From NCBI GenBank assembly GCA_947495575.1, contig CANLZL010000002.1:558001-622000 (forward strand): a stretch of DNA of 64,000 nucleotides. Direction: 5' to 3'. Position 1 is the first letter of the stretch. Every line of letters starts with the position of its first letter. Below, piece by piece: positions 35,474 to 58,550 of the stretch. This stretch comes from an uncultured Nioella sp. (GTDB taxonomy: Bacteria; Pseudomonadota; Alphaproteobacteria; Rhodobacterales; Rhodobacteraceae). The translations under genes and the position numbers were made by a program. The notes beneath the pieces are model-generated. The model searched no databases. It was not told where the DNA came from and was given only the letters and a program-made list of their open reading frames with translations.

Positions 35474-36484
35474 TTAGAGAATCTCCGACAGCTTCGGCAG
35501 GCCCATCGGGTCAATCGAAGGGGGGGCTGCCGGGGCATCGGTGCGACGTGCCACACGCAGTTTTGCTGATCGTGCGCGAGGATTGCGCGCGATTTCCTCG
35601 GCGTCTGGCGCGATTGCCCGGCGTGGGGTCAAAACGAAACCTGGCTCACGTGCGGCCTCTTGCGGGGCGTAGCGGGACCCGCCGCCGCCCGAGCTGGCCC
35701 TGTCTTGCAAAAAGCGTTTTGCAATGCGGTCTTCTACGCTGTGAAAGGTCACAACTGCCAATTGCCCACCGGGGCGTAGCGCACGTTCGGCGGCCATCAA
35801 ACCCTCAGCCAATTGGCCGTATTCATCATTTACAGCGATGCGGATCGCCTGAAAGCTGCGCGTAGCAGGATGGCTTTGGTTTGGCTTTGCTCGCGGCAGG
35901 TTATTTGTAATAATTTCAGATAATTGCAAAGTAGAGCTAATGCGTCTAACTGCCCGTTCGCGGGTGATCGCGCGCGCAATGCGGCGCGACGCACGCTCTT
36001 CACCATAGTGGTAAAGGATGTCGGCCAGCGCCTCCTCGGGCGCATCGTTCACCAGATCCTCAGCAGAAGGGCCGGACTGACCCATGCGCATATCCAATGG
36101 CCCGTCACGCATAAAAGAAAACCCGCGCTCTGCCAGATCCAACTGCATAGACGAGACCCCAAGGTCCAACATCACGCCATCCACTTGCGGATGCCCTACA
36201 CTGGCTACATGCTCATCAAGATCAGAGAATGTCCCGGCTACCAGTTTTAACCGGTCGCCGTAGTCATCGGCCCAATCTGCGGCCAATTCGAAAGCCAACG
36301 GGTCACGGTCAATACCGATAACTGTTTCCGCCCCGGCCTCCAGAACCGCGCGGGAATAGCCTCCCGCTCCGAAGGTTCCATCGGCCCAGACGCCGCTTAC
36401 AGGGGCCACCGCGGCCAAAATCGCACCAATCAGAACTGGAATATGGGGCATGTCGTCACCGTCCTTGCCCGCATCGCGGGTCAT
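35474..36484 (-). CDS. rsmH: 16S rRNA (cytosine1402-N4)-methyltransferase
   Basis: [17 protein letters not shown]...[47 protein letters not shown]. Confidence 0.95.
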
Positions 36485-36999
36485 TCGCTGTCACCCGTCG
36501 CCCGACCCACAAGACTGAGCGGATCGAAGAATTCTTCGTCATCGCCACCGAGGGCCACCAAAAGCTTCTCGATATTCTCTTCCGCGGCCTTGCCCTCTTC
36601 AGGGTTCAGGATGTGGAACTGATCGCCTTTACCCTGGAATAAGGCCTCGGCCCCGAGATTGATTTTGTCACGAGCGGCCACCGGCAAAACCAGACGGCCA
36701 GTGTCATCCACCGTCGTCTCATCGCATTTCGAGTAATAAAGGTATTCCAGTGCGGCGCGGAGGCGGGTGCCGCGGCCTTCATTCTGAATCATCTCGTCAA
36801 TCTCGTCATAGGCATCGCCCGACAGACATTCGAGGTAGTTTTTCTTGGGATCGCCATATGCAATGTAAAGGCGCGGTGCGCCGCCGGGGGCGTAGTCCTT
36901 GTCGGAATTCTGAAGCACACGACGGAACTTGACCGGGATAGACACCCGGCCCTTTCCGTCTACTTTGTTCAGGCTTTCGCCTTGAAACCTGCGCTCCAC
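36481..36999 (-). CDS. mraZ: Transcriptional regulator MraZ (GTG start)
   Basis: [39 protein letters not shown]; first gene of dcw cluster. Confidence 0.93.
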
Positions 37000-37464
37000 T
37001 GTCCCCGTCCTATCACTGTCAAAATTTGCCCTGGCCCTGAAACGGAACACGGCGGATCGAGCAAGCTGCCACTGCTCAATCCGCCGCCCTCGTCCCATTT
37101 CTGGGCTGTCCGACTGCGCGCGCTACCTGGGGGGGGATGTCTGCTCTGCCCGCGCGCCGGATCTCCATATTCAGCGAATGAGAATGCCTGTATGAAACCT
37201 GCTTTTATTATCTTTCCGGTCTGGCCTTTGGCTCTGTCCCGGTGCCTCTCGTTTGCTGTGTGATTGTTGTCTCATGGAACGATTTCCCAATCAATCCCCT
37301 TTTATGGGATTTTTCCCCACATCTTGGAAACTGCGGCCATGAAAAACAGGATATTGTGGGTTCATTGGCCGAATATTGACCAAATGCTGCGGAACGATGC
37401 TTAGTTACCCACTAGATATAGCCGTGCCTTTCCAGCCACAGAGCATGGGGATTTTTCCCATAAA

Positions 37465-38808: not shown

Positions 38809-38839
38809 GCCATGCATTTGCTGCATGGCAGCATTGACG
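38809..38839 (+). promoter_or_regulatory. Candidate operator/promoter upstream of the DUF1127-sRNA operon
   Basis: Perfect inverted repeat GCCATGCA-tttgc-TGCATGGC followed 4 nt later by TTGACG. Confidence 0.35.
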
Positions 38840-38971
38840 CTTTCGAGGATTGTGCATCTGCAGCAAATCCCTAATTTTAGGATCAACGAAACGAACATGG
38901 GCCACGCCGGACGCCACACAATGTTGGCGCAAACATTTCTCCGACGGACCTGGACCATAAGGAAACAAGAC

Positions 38972-39193
38972 ATGGCATACGCAGCACATAGCAAATCTAT
39001 CGACCTGTCCTTCGGCACACGTCTCCGCGAAATCCGCGAGCAAGCAACCGAAGCCTTCAAAGCGTACCGTATCTACCGCAAGACAGTTGCCGAGCTGAAT
39101 GAACTTGGCCCTCGTGAGCTGAACGATCTTGGCCTTAACCAGTCGATGATCCGCCGCGTGGCCCTAGAAGCTGCCTACGGCAAGAACGTTTGA
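38972..39193 (+). CDS. DUF1127 small protein (CcaF1-like)
   Basis: 73 aa; FKAYRIYRKTVAELNELGPRELNDLGLNQSMIRRVALEAAYG is DUF1127; located immediately 5' of the CCTCCTCCC hairpin array. Confidence 0.85.
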   Translation: MAYAAHSKSIDLSFGTRLREIREQATEAFKAYRIYRKTVAELNELGPRELNDLGLNQSMIRRVALEAAYGKNV

Positions 39194-39207
39194 CAATTAG
39201 AGACATC

Positions 39208-39287
39208 AGCCGGTTTTCTCCTCCCTTTTAACCGGTTGATCCTGCGGCGACGCCTCCTCCTCCTCCCTTGGCGTCGCCGCCAAAAAA
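39208..39287 (+). ncRNA. CcsR/cuckoo-type sRNA unit 1
   Basis: Hairpin 39208-39237 (loop CTCCTCCC) and 39244-39280 (11-bp stem GCGGCGACGCC/GGCGTCGCCGC, loop CCTCCTCCTCCC). Confidence 0.82.
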
Positions 39288-39312
39288 TACCGGCCCAAAG
39301 TTGGGTCAGATC

Positions 39313-39390
39313 TACGAACCCTTCCTCCTCCCTTTTGGGTTCGTAATACAGCGGTAGCGCCTCTCCTCCTCCCTGGCGCTACCGCAAAAA
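39313..39390 (+). ncRNA. CcsR/cuckoo-type sRNA unit 2
   Basis: Hairpin 39313-39345 (TACGAACCC/GGGTTCGTA) and 39351-39385 (GCGGTAGCGCC/GGCGCTACCGC), both loops CCTCCTCCC. Confidence 0.85.
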
Positions 39391-39419
39391 TATCGGGCCC
39401 CGAAGCGGGTCAGCTCTTC

Positions 39420-39492
39420 CGGGTCCTTCCTCCTCCCTTTTGGACCCGAAATGAGGCGGCAGCGCCCTTCCTCCTCCCTTGGGGGCTGCCGC
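39420..39492 (+). ncRNA. CcsR/cuckoo-type sRNA unit 3
   Basis: Hairpin 39420-39448 (CGGGTCC/GGACCCG) and 39456-39492 (GCGGCAGCGCCC/GGGGGCTGCCGC), both loops CCTCCTCCC. Confidence 0.85.
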
Positions 39493-39528
39493 ACCTCCCA
39501 TACGGGTCCCCAAAAGGACCCACTCATC

Positions 39529-39601
39529 CGGGTCCTTCCTCCTCCCTTTGGATCCGAATTGAGGCGGCAGCACCCTCTCCTCCTCCCTTGGGGGTTGCCG
39601 C
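39529..39601 (+). ncRNA. CcsR/cuckoo-type sRNA unit 4
   Basis: Hairpin 39529-39556 (CGGGTCC/GGATCCG) and 39564-39601 (GCGGCAGCACCC/GGGGGTTGCCGC), both loops CCTCCTCCC. Confidence 0.85.
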
Positions 39602-39637
39602 AAACAACAAAAGGCCGGGTTTCCCCGGCCTGTCAGA

Positions 39638-39718
39638 TCGGCGCCTTCCTCCTCCCTTTTGGGCGCTGAGTTCTGGCGGTGGCACCCTCTCCTCCTCCCT
39701 GGGTGCCACCGCCTTTTT
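39638..39718 (+). ncRNA. CcsR/cuckoo-type sRNA unit 5, last of the array
   Basis: Hairpin 39638-39669 (TCGGCGCC/GGCGCTGA) and 39675-39713 (13-bp perfect stem GGCGGTGGCACCC/GGGTGCCACCGCC) followed by TTTTT. Confidence 0.87.
39675..39718 (+). terminator. Rho-independent terminator closing the sRNA array
   Basis: 13-bp GC-rich hairpin followed by T5; its loop also carries CCTCCTCCC. Confidence 0.8.
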
Positions 39719-39734
39719 CATTTCCGGCGGCGCG

Positions 39735-53363: not shown

Positions 53364-53438
53364 GCGGGCGTAGCTCAGGGGTAGAGCATAACCTTGCCAA
53401 GGTTAGGGTCGGGCGTTCGAATCGCCTCGCCCGCTCCA
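53364..53438 (+). tRNA. tRNA-Gly(GCC)
   Basis: GCGGGCG/CGCCCGC acceptor, anticodon loop TTGCCAA, GTTCGAATC T-arm, encoded TCCA. Confidence 0.96.
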
Positions 53439-53556: not shown

Positions 53557-53631
53557 GCGGGCGTAGCTCAGGGGTAGAGCATAACCTTGCCAAGGTTAGG
53601 GTCGGGCGTTCGAATCGCCTCGCCCGCTCCA
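53557..53631 (+). tRNA. tRNA-Gly(GCC), second identical copy
   Basis: Same 75-nt sequence as 53364..53438. Confidence 0.96.
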
Positions 53632-57112: not shown

Positions 57113-58027
57113 ATGGACAACCTGCAAGGGATCCTGACCGAAATCGTGCAGGAGATGGGTGCGCGCGAAGCGCGTGGAACCGTTGCCAATTACATTCCGG
57201 AACTTGCTGCCGTTGACCCCACGAAATTCGGCATTGCCGTGGCCCTGCCCGATGGGCGGGTCTTATCGTCGGGTGATACGGATGACGTATTTTCGATCCA
57301 GTCGATTTCCAAAGTGTTCACGCTTGCCATCGCCCTTGGACGTCTTGGTGATCAACTTTGGGCACGGGTTGGGCGTGAACCCTCAGGTCAGGCCTTCAAC
57401 TCCATCCTTCAACTGGAACATGAACAAGGCCGTCCGCGGAACCCGTTTATCAATGCCGGCGCAATTGCCGTGACAGACGCCATCCTTGCCGGGCATGTGC
57501 CAAAGGTAGTGTTGGGCGAAATACTGCATTTCGTTCGCACCGCCGCCGAAGATGACGACATCCACATCAACAAATCGGTGGCAAGATCTGAAACAGAAAC
57601 CGGCCATCGCAATTTCGCCCTCGCCCATTTCATGCGGGCTCATGGGCGCCTGTTCAACTCACCCGAATTGACGCTCGGCACCTATTTCCATCAATGCGCA
57701 ATTGAGATGACCTGCGAGCAACTGGCCCGCGCGGGCCGGTTCCTGACCAATGCGCCCGGAGTGCCACGCATGGTCTCACCCGACCGGGTGCGCAGGATCA
57801 ACGCCATCATGATGACGTGCGGGCATTACGACGCTTCGGGCGATTTCGCCTATCGCGTCGGCCTGCCGGGAAAAAGCGGGGTTGGCGGCGGCATCCTCTG
57901 CGTTGTGCCTGGAAAGGCTTCAATCGCCGTCTGGTCCCCTGGCCTTAACGCGCAAGGCAATTCACAACTTGGCACGGAAGCCATCGAAATGCTGGCACGT
58001 CAAATGGGCTGGTCTGTATTTGCCTAG
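57113..58027 (+). CDS. glsA: Glutaminase
   Basis: [53 protein letters not shown]. Confidence 0.95.
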
Positions 58028-58413
58028 TTCACCCGGGTCCAGGTGCCGCCATCTCGGCAAATGCCCAAACGGCAGCCCCTGACCGATAACGTATTTCCGA
58101 AAATTGTGACCCGGCTGTTATAGGTCTGCCCCCGATCGGGCGAGTAAACCTGTCCTCGATATTCGCCGCTGGAATGTATCTCCATGCCAATCAGGATCTG
58201 ACGCCCTACATTATCCGAGCTGATTTGGCTTCCGTCGGGCCCGTAGGCCACGATCAGGGTCCCGCAATAGCCGTCGGCACAGGGTGCAACCTCAATCAAT
58301 CCGCTATTACCATTGTCATCTCCTGCCGTGCGCCAGCGTCCCTCTATGGGGTCAGCAAGTGCTGCAGTTGCCGTGGCGACAGTCAGGATCACAGTCAAAA
58401 AAAGACGTTTCAT
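58024..58413 (-). CDS. DUF2147 domain protein, exported
   Basis: Signal peptide; [43 protein letters not shown] Shine-Dalgarno. Confidence 0.8.
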
Positions 58414-58550
58414 CGGGTCCTCCTCCCAAATCCTGTCCTGATCCTGCGTGTTTCCGTCCCAGTCAGGCAAGGATGACGTTGCTGCCGCTTGGCAAGGCAG
58501 CGCGCTTGCTGCAAAAGGCGCGGGACGCGTTAGAATGAAAGGCCCTGACA

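Follow-up and report, generated by a model that had tools for sequence, protein, structure and literature searches.

The described system closest to the locus reported here is the CcsR1-4/ccaF1 operon of Rhodobacter sphaeroides. According to the published accounts drawn on here, co-transcription of the operon takes place from an RpoHI/RpoHII promoter, RNase E releases the four CcsR RNAs from the 3′ portion of the ccaF1 mRNA, CcaF1 itself takes part in their maturation, and the resulting RNAs act on flhR mRNA (PMC10253847, PMC8307010, PMC8625941). Cuckoo RNAs have been characterised as sets of two to four hairpins with a conserved loop and helices that lack sequence conservation (Reinkensmeier and Giegerich 2015, as summarised in PMC4504443), and the family has been linked to DUF1127 genes (PMC10253847). 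In rhizobia, the same loop is found in ar14/NfeR1 (SmelA075, RF02344), a stand-alone three-hairpin sRNA that in S. meliloti has a LysR-type LsrB box upstream and whose description includes no tandem array (PMC10746234). The VtlR/LsrB regulon of Brucella, Agrobacterium and Sinorhizobium in turn drives both DUF1127 genes and sRNAs of the anti-Shine-Dalgarno type (PMC12595884, PMC7486931).

We analysed a stretch of 64,000 nucleotides from an uncultured Nioella sp. (hereafter the window, with coordinates counted from its first letter). Inspection of the array region (39194-39725) revealed ten hairpins with a CTCCTCCC loop, arranged as five A/B pairs at 39208-39714 (+), just as a first-pass annotation of this DNA had described them; the ten CTCCTCCC motifs fall between 39218 and 39699, each within a stem of 8-13 bp, and the loop motif common to all ten is C(C)UCCUCCC. 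The annotation had also remarked that the first loop differs from the others, which holds, since this loop is CTCCTCCC and the remaining nine are CCTCCTCCC, and the stem sequences that it quoted are exact. Stems are about 9-11 bp long in the A hairpins and 11-13 bp in the B hairpins, most of which start with GCGGC or GCGGT. Each unit comprises one A and one B hairpin on the forward strand: unit 1 lies at 39208-39281 (A at 39208-39240, B at 39244-39280), unit 2 at 39313-39385, unit 3 at 39417-39492, unit 4 at 39526-39601 and unit 5 at 39638-39714. The B hairpin of unit 5 has a 13-bp stem followed by TTTTTC, and probably doubles as the transcript terminator. The array as a whole folds at −256 kcal/mol, against −177 ± 6 kcal/mol for shuffled sequences (z = −12.5; 0 of 100 shuffles as good). 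Nine of the 20 copies of CCTCCTCCC in the 3.68-Mb genome are within the array, and the window holds one more outside it, at 58419.

As in the R. sphaeroides operon, tandem two-hairpin units with CCUCCUCCC loops here follow a DUF1127 gene. This gene (38972-39193, +) encodes a CcaF1-like protein of 73 amino acids that matches PF06568 above the cut-off (E = 1.1e-10), a gene of the kind that the first reading had named for R. sphaeroides, and it ends about 15 nt before the first hairpin on the same strand. Its position is kept in relatives: when 35 arrays were picked by their hairpin motif and nothing else, a DUF1127 gene turned out to stand directly upstream of 31, with 8-83 nt between the stop codon and the first motif.

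A covariance-model search, which had been proposed as a check, gave a divided answer. All five units match the Rfam model CcsR1 (RF02791) over its full 83 positions, with E values from 1e-4 to 2.5e-9, but all fall short of the gathering score, at 28.6-44.1 bits vs 65.3; the matches are at 39202-39285 (unit 1, 33.7 bits), 39309-39390 (unit 2, 44.1 bits, E = 2.5e-9), 39412-39497 (unit 3, 37.8 bits), 39521-39606 (unit 4, 28.6 bits) and 39632-39717 (unit 5, 39.5 bits). The model of the rhizobial relative ar14 matches several units, the best at 49.1 bits vs a gathering score of 58.8 bits, and an Rfam search at gathering scores returned no match in the array. CcsR1 units in 13 related loci likewise score at most 58 bits vs the cut-off of 65.3; across 20 related loci, no CcsR1 unit attains the curated cut-off and only three ar14 matches reach theirs. 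As the related loci are equally sub-threshold, the shortfall of this array reflects narrow models. The assignment to the CcsR/cuckoo family made at first reading is upheld by the loop pairs, the covarying stems and the full-length sub-threshold CcsR1 and ar14 matches, and the array is an ordinary member of the published cuckoo RNA family. The unit length of about 83 also resembles that of CcsR1-4, whose operon has four units where this one has five; the RpoHI/HII promoter is a feature of R. sphaeroides, and our comparisons of linker hairpins and operators, given below, cover genomes other than R. sphaeroides itself. With cuckoo RNA/CIN1 loci the array shares the conserved loop, the variable helices and the DUF1127 association, and set against the later description of those loci it displayed no difference. 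It differs from ar14/NfeR1 in that its units are paired and stand behind a gene.

To assess covariation we took 236 motifs in 31 arrays, chosen by motif alone and with no pairing criterion for any single motif, and exchanged their arms in a swap test. Mean scores were 26.0 for a hairpin's own arms, 13.2 for swaps between loci, 13.9 for swaps within a locus and 10.3 for shuffled flanks; the stems thus vary in sequence without losing their pairing, around a constant loop. The first-pass annotation had claimed exactly such covariation and had named random drift of the stems in relatives as what would speak against its reading; the former is confirmed by the swap test, and the latter was not seen. 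In a 10 × 10 matrix of the arms in the window, the own 3′ arm is the best partner for 8 of the 10 5′ arms, the exceptions being both hairpins of unit 4, for which the near-identical arms of unit 3 pair equally well or 1-2 points better; units 3 and 4 are recent look-alikes. The regular spacing of 105-112 nt from pair to pair might be taken as the mark of repetitive DNA (CRISPR-like, REP or other) whose folding is accidental. Such a reading is refuted by the covarying stems, the invariant loops and the place behind DUF1127 that is conserved across genera, and the array is moreover a single locus in its genome; we accord this explanation practically no probability.

The array had been presented as a five-copy version of the CcsR system, and while the count of five units is correct, the number is not remarkable. 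In a sample of 298 genomes of the family, about one per genus, 249 have at least one hairpin pair (median 4, maximum 25), 91 have at least five, exactly five pairs occur in 30 and as many as 25 in one. What the array contributes to the published family is another copy-number variant, and the comparative data indicate that unit number changes freely, from 1 to 25 pairs. Some arrays are made up of near-identical repeats (G052, G150 and G165), which points to recent tandem growth. The array of G165 (L053, G165:C1:333500-338000) consists of 25 pairs of a near-identical three-hairpin repeat, that of G052 contains five identical unit sequences, and that of G150 is also strongly amplified.

Beyond copy number, the analysis adds two features, namely a linker hairpin that makes the repeat a three-hairpin one and a family-wide operator. 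The linkers from pair to pair are 31-36 nt long and usually open with an A-rich run that leads into a small, motif-free hairpin rich in GC. The four motif-free hairpins, absent from the first-pass annotation, lie at about 39292-39307, 39396-39412, 39504-39521 and 39612-39631 (+). In linker 1 (39281-39312; ΔG −9.1, z −3.4) and linker 2 (39386-39416; ΔG −7.7, z −0.9) the hairpin follows an A-rich stretch, as it does in linker 4 (39602-39637; ΔG −17.1, z −4.9), where its stem is GGCCGGG/CCCGGCC; that of linker 3 (39493-39525; ΔG −11.6, z −5.9) is GGGTCC/GGACCC. All 57 linkers from this and related arrays (22-75 nt) fold at −5 kcal/mol or below (mean z −2.27 relative to simple shuffles), and as some of them hold an extra motif hairpin that was skipped by the finder (e.g., L043 and L044), purely motif-free linkers are somewhat fewer than 57. 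Because a folding hairpin is found in every linker tested, the repeat is more aptly seen as a set of three hairpins, of which two have the loop motif and the third lacks it.

The operator is part of a promoter block of about 60 nt (38812-38878) that is conserved across 39 aligned upstream sequences, that the first-pass annotation did not include, and for which no description was found in the literature for this group of bacteria. The aligned block reads tATGCA-n-ttgCTGCATaGCaGCATTG, 11-12 nt, ATTGTGCa--cGCAGCAt, then ccta--tT; judged by this alignment, it is shared by most relatives and shows tighter conservation than most of the operon. Its first part is a putative operator (38812-38836, +) in which the palindrome ATGCATTTGCTGCAT (38812-38826), of the form T-N11-A, overlaps TGCATGGCAGCATTG (38822-38836). 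The palindrome is ATGCA-N5-TGCAT here and ATGCR-N5-YGCAT across genomes, and in several genomes its R and Y change together. The second conserved block in the alignment, ATTGTGCATCTGCAGCA (38849-38865, +), is probably a −35 element (TTGTGC) with an overlapping half-site, and CCTAATTTT (38870-38878, +), conserved as ccta..tT, is probably the −10 element, of RpoH-like or housekeeping type. A sigma-70 consensus was not found at the promoter; it has a −35 of TTG type and a −10 of CCTAAT type, both conserved ahead of the DUF1127 gene across the 39 sequences.

We also examined 20 places in 14 genomes picked by their match to the block, many of them second copies and one cut by a contig end. All 19 readable copies precede a DUF1127 gene, hairpins or both; the selection includes places already known from the arrays, so that the informative cases are the extra copies. 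In G254 (L136/L137) and G295 (L144/L145) the operon is split, one copy of the block standing before hairpins alone and the other before DUF1127 alone, and at L150 and L152 hairpins alone stand behind the block. Given that every readable copy precedes one or both of these elements, the block marks a DUF1127/cuckoo module even where the two halves are apart. Separately, G168 was found to have four operator-DUF1127 loci (L140, L138, L139 and L141), with one motif hairpin or more behind each of them. In the source genome, the second-best match to the operator palindrome (G000:C11:30735; L066, and L133 at 3739) is upstream of an arginine-rich ORF of 54 amino acids; by eye this ORF resembles DUF1127, but it has no Pfam match and was rejected as a member.

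These arrangements bear on whether the hairpins act in trans at all. One may postulate that they work in cis, forming a structure at the 3′ end of the DUF1127 mRNA that lends it stability or sets its timing, and their place directly behind the DUF1127 gene in most genomes, together with the likeness of the last hairpin to a terminator, would suit such a role. A stabiliser requires no invariant loop, however, whereas here the loop is invariant while the stems change; hairpins without DUF1127 stand behind the same operator at L136, L144, L150 and L152; and in R. sphaeroides the corresponding pieces are reported to be matured by processing into sRNAs for which an mRNA target is known (PMC8307010). 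We therefore regard a cis role as very improbable, and have high confidence that the locus is a ccaF1-CcsR type operon of the cuckoo RNA family that works broadly as follows. As its anatomy and the R. sphaeroides operon suggest, a single promoter would drive transcription of the DUF1127 gene and, downstream of it on the same RNA, of five two-hairpin sRNAs. By analogy with R. sphaeroides, RNase E, aided by the DUF1127 protein, would cut this transcript into units of about 80 nt; the A-rich stretches after the B hairpins are likely cut sites, and the linker hairpins may cap the cut pieces. The ten C(C)UCCUCCC loops, if they behave as elsewhere in the family, would then pair with purine-rich ribosome-binding sites and lower the translation of many mRNAs under stress.

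Within the loop, which is complementary to GGGAGGAGG, lies CCUCCU, the core of the 16S rRNA anti-Shine-Dalgarno sequence. Anti-Shine-Dalgarno loops are a published idea (PMC3927594), and by analogy it is plausible that those of this array act in this way on many mRNAs. Outside the array the genome contains only 11 perfect 9-nt complements of the loop, and just 3 of these 11 are at apparent ribosome-binding sites, 5-7 nt before the apparent start codons of a DUF2147 gene, a gene for a PAS-domain protein and one for an unassigned protein. The DUF2147 gene lies in the window (58027-58413, −; ATG at 58413) and has GGGAGGAGG as its ribosome-binding site at 58419-58427 (−), which makes it a natural candidate target of the sRNA loops. 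Across the 61 gene calls of the window, the loop finds scarcely more complementarity ahead of start codons than in the in-gene control, which is a weak test of targeting, and neither the perfect loop complements nor the gene starts of the window gave clear enrichment; targeting is thus something that we infer.

Two candidates were weighed for the regulator that switches the promoter. A palindrome of the form T-N11-A is the usual form of a LysR-type site. The 15-mer TGCATGGCAGCATTG agrees with the reverse complement of the Brucella VtlR motif CAATGCAGCCATGCA at 14 of 15 bases, and the one differing base is at a position that is variable among relatives; in the shorter VtlR consensus, GCAT-N3-TG-N3-T, the TG position is AG here and is TG only in some relatives. 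In Brucella, VtlR acts as an activator of three DUF1127 genes and of the sRNA AbcR2 (PMC12595884); NfeR1, which is of ar14 type and carries the same loops, cannot do without the VtlR ortholog LsrB, whose site there is at −72 to −57 (PMC10746234). A transcription start near 38884 would put the block in the window at about −72 to −48. A gene for a LysR-type ortholog of VtlR/LsrB was sought in the trxB neighbourhood and is not there, an Lrp-type gene being present, and elsewhere in the class, outside the family, none of the 30 sites inspected that carry the exact 15-mer is near a DUF1127 gene, most being chance occurrences in coding sequence.

The operator could alternatively be a PhaR site, in which case the operon would answer to polyhydroxybutyrate stores. 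R. sphaeroides PhaR binds CTGCNNNGCAG (PMC12542648), and the window operator contains CTGCATGGCAG, which satisfies this consensus; of the features of PhaR operators (YGCRNYGCR / CTGCN3GCAG), it has CTGCN3GCAG and lacks the R-N-Y centre, its own centre being AT[AG] in nearly all sequences, unlike the two clear PhaR sites of this genome, CTGCAGTGCAG and CTGCACTGCAG, whose symmetrical R-N-Y centres are like the S. meliloti consensus. The CTGC...GCAG pattern is lost in both near-complete phaR-less genomes with arrays (L108 and L120), yet these keep ATGCR-N5-YGCAT and CATT, and many phaR-bearing genomes are also without GCAG, having GCGG in its place. The source genome has phaR, as do 288 of the 298 genomes of the family, and a phylogenetic profile of phaR against the operator was set aside as uninformative because the gene is nearly universal. 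A further close site in the genome lies ahead of the gene for a CoA-transferase that may use acetoacetate as a substrate. On balance we consider a PhaR site unlikely; with evidence on both sides, and with no regulator gene found beside trxB, LysR-type control is a preferred reading only, the better of the two. The two clear PhaR-type operators themselves are between phaC and the phasin-like gene phaP, at 1684 and 1712 of L134 (G000:C1:634500-638500).

Under LysR-type control, a regulator perhaps of the VtlR/LsrB kind may switch the promoter from 38812-38836. We would go further only tentatively, at somewhat less than even chances, and propose that a single LysR-type operator, conserved across Rhodobacteraceae, unites the DUF1127 protein and the cuckoo RNAs in one regulon and is what lets the link between them survive a split of the operon. 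If true, this would tie the stress sRNAs of Rhodobacter to the VtlR/LsrB circuit of rhizobia and Brucella, and a LysR-type regulator, if bound, would be a second input to the activation of these sRNAs in Rhodobacter-type bacteria, for which heat-shock sigma factors have been the explanation until now.

Two further observations concern other parts of the window. The start of the dcw cluster (mraZ, rsmH) is at 35474-37098 (−). In R. sphaeroides the sRNA UpsM comes from the mraZ/dcw leader; structure was sought in the mraZ/dcw 5′ leader here, and the fold of the whole leader has a z of only −0.89, which is not significant. Two tandem tRNA-Gly (GCC) genes of equal score, apparently a duplication, occupy 53364-53438 and 53557-53631.
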